22,755 bases of DNA from a virus. Location: positions 1,392-24,146 of the IMG/VR virus record IMGVR_UViG_3300030085_003369; one strand, 5' to 3'. This document shows positions 2,520-5,296 of the stretch, one piece after another. The translations under genes were made by a program, and so were the position numbers. How positions within the stretch are numbered: position 1 is the stretch's first letter; every line of letters starts with the position of its first letter. Under the pieces are notes generated by a model, which was not told where the DNA came from, searched no databases, and was given only the letters and a program-made list of their open reading frames with translations.

Positions 2520-2894
2520 CTATTTAGAACGTATTTTAGTAAAACCGAGTTCTATTACGTCAGACATTTCTTCTGGATACACTTCGTAAAGACCACCAAC
2601 AATTTGATTGTAGTTATATTGTCTTCTATCACCCCAGTGAAAGTTGATTCCACGGAATCCCCAAGAAAATATATCAGTCACACCCACGAGAGGATATTCA
2701 TCATATTCTCCAGGTGTAACTGCATTATAAAAGAAAGTATAATATTTTCCAGTTCCACTCGGAACTTTACCACCTTCGTTTAAAACGCCAATTAATTTCA
2801 TCATTACATCATCGGCATCTTCTGTGCCAACTAAACTATCAACTACACCACGGACACGATTTTCATCATCATCTGTTGGGTACGAGAATGTCAT
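2520..2894 (-). CDS. Conserved small protein of unknown function between gp4 and gp48
   Basis: A 124-residue acidic protein. Its ATG overlaps the stop of gene 4 by 4 bases (ATGA), which points to translational coupling. No catalytic motif is visible. The aromatic, Gly-rich centre (residues about 50-105: KYYTFFYNAVTPGEYDEYPLVGVTDIF, then FSWGFRGINFHWG and GLYEVYPEE) looks like a compact beta-rich structural domain, and I recognise a similar small protein in this position in other cyanophages, but no function. The position between a head completion gene and baseplate genes suggests a virion or assembly role, which is inference only. Its stop codon TAG is the end of the CTAAATAG late promoter element of gene 48. 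Confidence 0.75.
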   Translation of the reverse strand: MTFSYPTDDDENRVRGVVDSLVGTEDADDVMMKLIGVLNEGGKVPSGTGKYYTFFYNAVTPGEYDEYPLVGVTDIFSWGFRGINFHWGDRRQYNYNQIVGGLYEVYPEEMSDVIELGFTKIRSK

Positions 2895-3328
2895 TTGATA
2901 CCTAACTCGTTTTCTGTAAGAACTTTAAATTCATATCCACGATCTAAACACCATTCTTTTGCTGCTTCCCATTTTGCCTGATTCTTGGCATATTCCATAA
3001 CTTCATAGATGTAACCCTTCGTTTTTTTCTTTTGAACTTTGGGTTCCACACACTGTTTAAATGGTTTGATTTCAATAATCATCTTTTTAATCTTTCCATT
3101 TGATTCGCGAACTTTAATATAAAAGTCTGGAAAGTAACGATGATACCGATTATCAATTGGAGAATGGTAGGGAACAACAACCTCTTCACTTCCCCATTCT
3201 AAAATATTTTCATTCTTATCACAGTAAACCATAAACTTACGCTCCCAGAGAGAACGATAGACTATATTAGTATGGTCACCCTTATATTTCCTAGGATAAG
3301 ATGGTTTGTATTTTCCCTTATATGACAT
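2891..3328 (-). CDS. 4: gp4-like head completion nuclease
   Basis: A 145-residue protein, close to T4 gp4 (about 150). gp4 is required to complete filled heads before tail joining. The sequence carries a TnsA-like PD-(D/E)xK nuclease signature in order: E29 in YRSLWERKF, D68 in YFPDFY, and E86-x-K88 in IIEIKPF, the arrangement of a metal-dependent endonuclease core. The N-terminus is Lys/Tyr-rich (YKGKYKPSYPRKYKG), suited to DNA binding. It is the first gene of the minus-strand block. A CTAAATA element on the minus strand (3368 down to 3362) lies about 33 bases before the ATG and is the likely late promoter. The catalytic role is inferred from the motif. Confidence 0.85.
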   Translation of the reverse strand: MSYKGKYKPSYPRKYKGDHTNIVYRSLWERKFMVYCDKNENILEWGSEEVVVPYHSPIDNRYHRYFPDFYIKVRESNGKIKKMIIEIKPFKQCVEPKVQKKKTKGYIYEVMEYAKNQAKWEAAKEWCLDRGYEFKVLTENELGIK

Positions 3329-3369: not shown

Positions 3370-4350
3370 GTGGCAAAATCAAAGACAACTCCGAAACCAG
3401 TACCAATAGATAGAGATAGAGCGGTAAATGTTTTTGGTAATGTAGCACAAACTAATTATTATCTAGTTAGTTTTTCTGGTTTTGGTAAAACTGGTCTTCT
3501 GGGCGGTTTGACTACCCATCTACAAACAAAATTTGATGTTAATCTTAGTGAAACTTTAGCGAATACTGGTCTTATGTGTAATGAGGCTTCATTACCGGGA
3601 AGTTCATTAGCAACTTCAGAAGTGAAAGATAATTTTATGGGTATCTCGCAAGAATTTGCACATACGAGATTATATACTGATATTGATTTTACTTTTTACG
3701 TAGATTCTAATTATAATAATCTAAGATTTTTTGAAGGATGGATTGATTATATTGCTTCTGGAAGTAATGCTAACGAATATGGCACTAACTATTATCGTAG
3801 AATGAGATATCCAGATCATTATAAATGTTCTGCGATGTCGATTACTAAATTTGAAAGAAATATGAGTAATACAACTTTATCTTACAAATTTATAAATGCT
3901 TTTCCAAAAACTGTAGCAGCAGTTCCTGTTTCTTATGGTGGTGCAGATATTTTGAGAGTATCTGTTTCTTTTAATTATGATCGATATATTGTCAATCCAA
4001 CTAAAGATACATTTTTGGGAGAAGTAAATACATTCGATCCTGATAGTGCAAGAGCATCATATGATCCAAATAAAGAAAGAGAATTGATTCGACAAAGAAG
4101 AGAACAATCATTAAAAACATCTAGAAAACCTACAGCACCCAAAATAATTGAAGAATCCGTTCAAGAATCTAGAAATGCACCAGTTGCTGCAGTTCCTCAA
4201 GAAGAAATAGAATCTAGTGGAACTACTGCAGTAACTGGACAAAATGCACTCGAAACATTATTGAGAAGACATGGCGGAGATACTGCAAAAGCATATGCTG
4301 AGTATGATAAGATTAGATATGGAAACACATTTCCTCCTGGCGCATTCTAA
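3370..4350 (+). CDS. 54: gp54-like baseplate tail tube initiator
   Basis: A 326-residue protein with a GTG start; no upstream ATG is available because the divergent promoter lies there. In T4, gp54 binds the hub over gp48 and starts tail tube polymerisation. Residues about 25-215 have the tail-tube-like beta pattern: NYYLVSFSGF, GLMCNEASLPGSSLATSEV, FTFYVDSNYNNLRFFEGWIDYIA and a C-terminal strand RVSVSFNYDRYIV. After residue about 225 there is a charged, probably disordered segment and a short helical end (residues about 287-315), giving a tail not obvious in T4. It heads the plus-strand tail operon. The closely related gp19 tail tube fold is an alternative, but the length and the neighbouring hub genes favour gp54. 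Confidence 0.75.
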   Translation: MAKSKTTPKPVPIDRDRAVNVFGNVAQTNYYLVSFSGFGKTGLLGGLTTHLQTKFDVNLSETLANTGLMCNEASLPGSSLATSEVKDNFMGISQEFAHTRLYTDIDFTFYVDSNYNNLRFFEGWIDYIASGSNANEYGTNYYRRMRYPDHYKCSAMSITKFERNMSNTTLSYKFINAFPKTVAAVPVSYGGADILRVSVSFNYDRYIVNPTKDTFLGEVNTFDPDSARASYDPNKERELIRQRREQSLKTSRKPTAPKIIEESVQESRNAPVAAVPQEEIESSGTTAVTGQNALETLLRRHGGDTAKAYAEYDKIRYGNTFPPGAF

Positions 4351-4391: not shown

Positions 4392-5114
4392 ATGCCATTA
4401 CCTAAGATTAATACGCCAACGTATGAAATGACGTTGCCTTCGACTGGAAAGAAGATTAGATATAGACCCTTTCTCGTAAGAGAAGAAAAGATTTTGATTA
4501 TGGCGATGGAATCAGAAAATATGTCTGATATCACAAATGCTATTGTTCAAATTCTTGGTGAATGTATTCTTACTGAAAATGTCAAAGTAGAAGATCTCGC
4601 TACTTTTGATATTGAATATTTGTTTTTAAATGTTCGAGCAAGATCTGTCGGTGAAACTGTTGATGTCAATATCACTTGCCCTGACGATGAAGAGACTCAG
4701 GTAGAAATGACAATTGATCTTGATACTATCAAGATTCAAAAAACAAGAGGTCATAAAAATATTATTAAGCTTGATGATAATCTTTCGATGAAACTTCGTT
4801 ATCCTTCACTACAACAGTTTGTTGAAAATAACTTTGAAACTGTAGATGGATTAAGTGAAGTTTCCCAATCTCTTTCGATGATTACATCATGTATTGATAT
4901 GATTTATAATCAAGAAGAGAGTTGGGAAGCATCTGACTACTCTAAAAAAGAACTTGATGATTTTATTGGACAATTAAATACTAAACAATTTAAAGAGATT
5001 GAAAAGTTCTTTACGACTATGCCTAAACTTTCTCATAAGATTGTAGTCAAAAATCCTACAACAAAAGTTGAATCTGAAGTTGTTCTTGAGGGGTTAGCAG
5101 CTTTTTTCAGTTAG
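4392..5114 (+). CDS. 26: gp26-like baseplate hub protein / tail assembly chaperone
   Basis: A 240-residue protein of the T4 gp26 baseplate family (T4 gp26 is about 208). The opening (MPLPKINTPTYEMTLPSTGKKIRYRPFLVREEKILIMAME) is typical. The middle contains a short beta insert with paired acidic residues (CPDDEETQVEM), and the C-terminal half is helical. In T4, gp26 is needed to build the hub with gp27, gp29 and gp5. Its position just before the tape-measure-like genes matches that of tail tape-measure chaperones in other tailed phages. The last codons GCT TTT TTC AGT TAG contain a -1 slippery heptamer, so a longer product of about 301 residues (239 + QLG + 59) may also be made. Hub role: established for T4; chaperone role: inference. 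Confidence 0.8.
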   Translation: MPLPKINTPTYEMTLPSTGKKIRYRPFLVREEKILIMAMESENMSDITNAIVQILGECILTENVKVEDLATFDIEYLFLNVRARSVGETVDVNITCPDDEETQVEMTIDLDTIKIQKTRGHKNIIKLDDNLSMKLRYPSLQQFVENNFETVDGLSEVSQSLSMITSCIDMIYNQEESWEASDYSKKELDDFIGQLNTKQFKEIEKFFTTMPKLSHKIVVKNPTTKVESEVVLEGLAAFFS

Positions 5115-5127
5115 GTATGGCTCATAC
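5088..5127 (+). promoter_or_regulatory. Candidate -1 programmed ribosomal frameshift site at the end of gene 26
   Basis: The heptamer T TTT TTC occupies 5102-5108 in the correct phase of gene 26 (codons GCT, TTT, TTC). GAGGGG at 5088-5093, an SD-like stimulator, ends 8 bases upstream. Downstream, GTATG (5115-5119) pairs with CATAC (5123-5127) around a GCT loop, 6 bases after the heptamer. The zero frame stops at 5112-5114. The -1 frame continues CAG TTA GGT ATG into the 59-residue ORF with no intervening stop. Confidence 0.65.
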
Positions 5128-5296
5128 TAACCTTGAGTCATACTATAAAATCAACTTTGCCTTGATGCAGCATCATAAATATTCATTAACAGAGCTAGAA
5201 AATATGATTCCTTGGGAAAGAGAAGTTTATCTCGCTCTTCTCCAACAATATATTGAAGAAGAAAATCTAAAAGCACAGCAGCAGAGTGGAATCTAA
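5117..5296 (+). CDS. Small ORF after gene 26, likely the frameshift extension (GT-like)
   Basis: A 59-residue ORF (MAHTNLESYYKINFALMQHH, then KYSLTELENMIPWEREVYLALL and a Gln/Glu-rich end). It starts 2 bases after the gene 26 stop, in the -1 frame relative to it, and its stop overlaps the GTG start of the next gene. The motif MIPWEREVYLALL with a preceding short helix is typical of the C-terminal parts of tail tape-measure chaperones, which recruit the tape measure through a small helical domain. No good ribosome binding site lies at the usual distance from its ATG: the only purine run, GAGGGG, ends 23 bases away. It may be expressed mainly as a -1 fusion to gp26, or by reinitiation. By gene order it could be compared with T4 gene 51, but at 59 residues it is far shorter than T4 gp51. 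Confidence 0.7.
   Translation: MAHTNLESYYKINFALMQHHKYSLTELENMIPWEREVYLALLQQYIEEENLKAQQQSGI

Follow-up and report, generated by a model that had tools for sequence, protein, structure and literature searches.

Gene content of the locus

The window, as the whole stretch of 22,755 nucleotides analyzed here will be called, is part of a 25,026-base record of an uncultured virus (IMG/VR record IMGVR_UViG_3300030085_003369), with tail genes similar to the ones found in cyanophages and in other T4-like phages from the sea. The features relevant to this study are the following:

3370-4350, plus strand: tail-tube-like gene, directly upstream of gene 26 (phrog_45 tail tube, 8.6e-45; PF23849, 6.8e-23)
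4392-5114, plus strand: gene 26, predicted short form of the tail assembly chaperone (lambda gpG-like), 240 aa, stop codon TAG at 5112-5114
5088-5093, plus strand: GAGGGG, SD-like element and probable internal stimulator, 8 nt upstream of the heptamer
5102-5108, plus strand: slippery heptamer T_TTT_TTC in the X_XXY_YYZ phase, one codon upstream of the gene 26 stop
5108-5296, plus strand: −1 frame extension, 62 codons followed by a TAA stop, predicted to supply the lambda T-like C-terminus of a 301-aa fusion, with base 5108 read a second time after the slip
5114-5124 with 5134-5144, plus strand: 11-bp stem-loop with a 9-nt loop, probable downstream stimulator, beginning 5 nt past the heptamer
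5117-5119, plus strand: ATG of the 59-aa ORF, probably unused as start codon
5286-6863, plus strand: downstream gene, tentatively tape-measure-like (weak match to phrog_5062 tape measure, 8.6e-07, residues 417-475)

The product of gene 26 matches PF12322 (T4_baseplate, 6e-73) and phrog_150 (baseplate hub, 2.8e-80). The extension, which contains the 59-residue ORF, matches phrog_634 (3.9e-28). One copy of gene 26 with its −1 extension is found at the locus, and the presence of a tail-tube-like gene upstream is as expected for G/GT synteny. An AlphaFold model of gp26, built with an alignment, is confident (pLDDT 89.5). In a fold search with this model, the HK97 chaperone 2ob9 had the highest probability (0.60) among the PDB hits listed, but its E value of 1.1 is not significant. 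The gp26 profile did not match any phage chaperone among the sequences of solved structures, an Rfam search gave no relevant match, and neither a promoter nor a terminator match was detected at the junction between gene 26 and the small ORF. On the minus strand, positions 2891-3328 of the window encode a protein with a TnsA-like endonuclease domain (PF08722, 3.3e-24); it may correspond to the gp4-like head completion protein of T4-like phages.

A slippery heptamer at the end of gene 26

Gene 26 ends with the codons GCT TTT TTC AGT TAG. The initial annotation had proposed that the heptamer T_TTT_TTC found in this sequence lies in the phase required for −1 frameshifting. Examination of the window confirmed the phase, and the heptamer turned out to be the sole in-phase T_TTT_TTN in the 6,153 codons of the main ORFs. 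After a −1 slip, the reading frame continues as CAG TTA GGT ATG and enters the 59-aa ORF (5117-5296), as had been anticipated; the predicted fusion has 239 + 62 = 301 residues.

On the basis of its sequence, we consider it very likely that the locus employs a programmed −1 ribosomal frameshift, which lets gene 26 encode two forms of a tail assembly chaperone. Most ribosomes would stop at TAG 5112 and release gp26, 240 aa long. In a minority of ribosomes, the tRNA-Phe molecules in the P and A sites would re-pair one base back, on TTT TTT, a slip probably assisted by the SD-like element upstream and by the stem-loop downstream. Slipped ribosomes would then read on to position 5296 and produce the fusion. 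By analogy with lambda gpG and gpGT, the gp26 part may coat the tape measure protein and the extension may recruit tail tube subunits. Slippage in vivo, slip efficiency and the chaperone roles are what we infer in this scheme.

Conservation of the slip site and the −1 frame

In 78 relatives at 77–100% protein identity, the TTT TTC codons are invariant; the stop codon of gene 26 varies freely among TAG, TGA and TAA in the same set. The analysis was extended to diverse loci taken from IMG/VR and from GenBank phages, 335 of which had gene 26 and enough downstream sequence. All 335 loci, which were chosen by gene 26, carry the small ORF in the −1 frame. Relatives that keep the small ORF and lose the heptamer or its phase, which the initial annotation had named as the case that would speak against frameshifting, proved to be rare: an in-phase T_TTT_TTN is present 0–2 codons before the gene 26 stop in 331 of the 335 loci, and the heptamer is found in 79/80 loci when these are collected through the small ORF rather than gene 26. 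In the single heptamer-less locus of the latter set (L356, around 1180-1200), a deletion of roughly 100 bases seems to remove the end of gene 26 together with the heptamer, and may be an assembly error.

The 331 loci with a heptamer, all of which have a −1 extension of 56–84 aa, were clustered into 118 groups at 80% protein identity and 42 groups at 60%; the heptamer is kept in each of the 42. Among the 118 representatives, the last base of the heptamer is C in 84, A in 23, T in 9 and G in 2. The A-site codon is a leucine codon (TTA or TTG) in 25 of them, and the heptamer is still kept; changes in the last base thus turn Phe-Phe into Phe-Leu while the slip site stays. In all 118 representatives T is the final base of the X codon, and TTT is the codon that follows. 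Under the codon use of gene 26, the chance of this pattern at the 42 clusters is about 10^-8.6 for the T of the X codon and 10^-6.3 for TTT, both uncorrected for phylogeny. In the rest of gene 26, the relatives have T_TTT_TTN at 13 of 27,505 codons.

A bias in codon choice was also observed. When the A-site codon encodes phenylalanine, TTC (84 representatives) is found far more often than TTT (9), even though TTT makes up 71% of the Phe codons elsewhere in gene 26. Judging from these counts, a T7 run at this codon seems to be avoided.

A different origin for the same product would be transcriptional slippage: addition of a U by RNA polymerase in the T6 run, which is present in nearly all loci, would give rise to a fraction of mRNA that encodes the fusion directly. 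Six Ts, however, are a short run for slippage of this kind. Furthermore, the phase is always X_XXY_YYZ, T7 runs are rare, as described above, and the SD-like element and the stem-loop lie at usual spacings, which fits ribosomal slippage. Transcriptional slippage appears extremely improbable as the source of the fusion.

The start codon of the small ORF

If the 59-residue ORF were a separate gene, translation might re-initiate at ATG 5117 after termination at the gene 26 stop. In favor of this, the ATG is found 2 nt past the stop in the window and in close relatives, and many public genomes do give the small ORF as a separate gene. In agreement with the initial annotation, which considered that the small ORF lacks a well-placed ribosome binding site, no SD-like tetramer was found 4–13 nt upstream of ATG 5117 in the window. 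Comparison of the 118 representatives also argues against re-initiation. The column of the window ATG contains ATG in 38 of them and CTC, CTT, CTA or CTG in 76, so that ATG is absent in 80. No ATG, GTG or TTG precedes the conserved core of the small ORF in 39 representatives, and a start codon linked to an SD sequence is available in only 14. In many relatives, therefore, frameshifting is the only obvious route for expression of the small ORF. In addition, conservation of the −1 frame product covers residues that precede the ATG, as exemplified by the presence of [ILV] at position 2 of the extension in 115/118 representatives. Re-initiation would also leave the heptamer and its phase unexplained. 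Altogether, we view a separate, re-initiated gene as very unlikely, and sequence comparison indicates that ATG 5117 is probably not used as a start codon.

Four of the 335 loci deserve separate mention, as they keep both frames without a T6 run: those of Pseudomonas phage Cygsa01 and Vibrio phages BX-1, K476 and K448. In all four, TAATG or TAATGR overlaps the gene 26 stop, an arrangement that was counted in favor of the re-initiation reading. They form one divergent, Ackermannviridae-like group, in which only BX-1 is filed under Ackermannviridae; Cygsa01, K476 and K448 have no family on record and were grouped with BX-1 by similarity only. Their sequence suggests that they may use either coupled re-initiation or another slip.

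Points counted against frameshifting in our evaluation include the following: the ATG of the window could in principle serve as a start codon, the form of the stem-loop is not common to all lineages, some of which have little structure, the four loci mentioned above lack the heptamer, and the similarity of the gp26 model to the HK97 chaperone is not significant.

Sequence elements around the slip site

Two elements that flank the slip site were examined at this locus. The GAGGGG sequence had been proposed as an SD-type stimulator, and its position 8 nt upstream of the heptamer was confirmed. In the 118 representatives, anti-SD pairing at spacers 7–11 exceeds that of synonymous shuffles that keep the protein and the codon use of the gene itself (for instance, −5.85 versus −4.30 kcal/mol at spacer 9); the anti-SD used for this comparison is a generic 16S tail and may differ from that of the phage host.

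Downstream of the heptamer, the stem-loop formed by 5114-5144 has a predicted free energy of −14.7 kcal/mol (z −4.24), and none of 200 shuffles folds as well. In 42 sequences of the clade with a gp26 identity of at least 50%, 72.7% of the cells in the stem are paired, a figure above those of shuffles and slid versions. Changes on both sides of the stem, including a UA to GC change at 5122-5136, were found in 19 cells against 7.5 expected, counts that kinship can inflate. In the 118 representatives, the 45 nt directly past the heptamer have a mean z of −2.33, compared with −0.2 to −0.6 at nine other places of the same loci. The region just past the heptamer is thus the only clearly structured one among those compared.

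Two candidate structures were discarded. One was the 5-bp hairpin at 5115-5127 that the initial annotation had considered: it has only −1.3 kcal/mol, is fully paired in 8/118 representatives and competes with the 11-bp stem-loop, which takes its place. The other was a single consensus RNA fold for all lineages, as an anchored alignment of the 118 representatives gave no structure. The reason is that lineages carry different stems: past the heptamer, other lineages have stems unlike that of the window, and some have none that is stable. Both the SD-like element and the stem-loop are likely stimulators in view of these comparisons, albeit with less certainty than the slip site.

Comparison with frameshifting in other phages

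The lambda G/GT comparison made in the initial annotation holds in the present analysis. As in lambda, the heptamer of the predicted −1 slip lies close to where the first ORF ends, the downstream −1 ORF is short, and a tail-tube-like gene and a tentatively tape-measure-like gene are nearby. The slip site itself is different, G_GGA_AAG in lambda and T_TTT_TTC in the window. The ratio of short to fusion product in lambda is 30:1, and in systems of the lambda type both products bind the tape measure protein. The lambda fusion is made at a low level, and T4 has been named as an exception among long-tailed phages, in which the G/GT frameshift is conserved (Atkins et al. 2016 review, PMC5009743). 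The tail chaperones of Vandenendeviridae and Andersonviridae undergo a conserved −1 frameshift at GTTTTT (PMC12846349). As in the window, their short chaperone ends with a poly-T slip site and has a −1 extension, which is annotated there as a hypothetical gene (PMC12846349); the window differs, however, in having a canonical T_TTT_TTN heptamer and a downstream stem-loop.

In outline, the view that frameshifting is undescribed for T4-like gene 26, expressed in the initial annotation, probably does not hold. Vladimirov et al. reportedly described slippery sites of the poly-T kind in the tail-chaperone genes of T4-like phages in 2022. The details given here may be new. The more interesting parts are the stem-loop, its turnover among lineages and a frameshift that may be ancestral.

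T4 gp51 and a possible origin of the predicted frameshift

The gp26 protein of the window is homologous to T4 gp26, which in T4 acts with gp51 as a hub assembly chaperone. Alignment of T4 gp26 with the 301-aa fusion extends only up to the slip region. In contrast, T4 gp51 aligns with the fusion end to end and across the junction (fusion residues 9-289 versus gp51 residues 3-249; hhalign probability 99.1, E 1.2e-18). The C-terminal residues are included in this alignment, and the extension is thus homologous to the gp51 C-terminus. From this homology we regard T4 gp51 as the natural in-frame counterpart of the predicted fusion. The difference lies in gene arrangement: T4 uses two separate genes on opposite strands and has no T6 run, while the window has one locus with a slip site for both products.

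Genes 26 and 51 are likewise apart and on opposite strands in Aeromonas phage 60AhydR15PP, and as in T4 its gene 26 ends without a T6 run. Other Straboviridae, namely Vibrio phage V05 (Schizotequatrovirus) and Aeromonas phage P19 (Emmerichvirinae), keep the heptamer. Its presence in V05 and P19 and its absence from T4 suggest that the frameshift is ancestral and the T4 arrangement derived. A broader reading, to which we give an even chance of being correct, is that T4-like phages ancestrally produced the two chaperone forms by frameshifting. Nearly all marine T4-like phages would have retained it, as would some Straboviridae (KVP40-like, Emmerichvirinae), while T4 would have swapped in a duplicated gene, fused in frame. 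The slip site would have remained fixed as the stem-loop was repeatedly replaced by lineage-specific stems.

The window locus and hundreds of relatives indicate that marine T4-like phages carry the standard G/GT signal, for which T4 has long been cited as an exception. As a consequence, the cyanophage gene annotated as 'baseplate hub assembly catalyst' (gp51) very probably does not encode a separate protein, a sequence-based conclusion that corrects annotations in very abundant viruses. The locus also offers a simple test system, in which a few synonymous substitutions within the heptamer would be expected to eliminate the long chaperone.

None of the public records examined at this locus annotates a joined gene. 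The extension is unannotated in the records of ACG-2014d and ORM_20, and in those of Melnitz-2, C48C1, HTVC008M and OLIVR6 its annotated start falls on an internal codon, within the conserved region.
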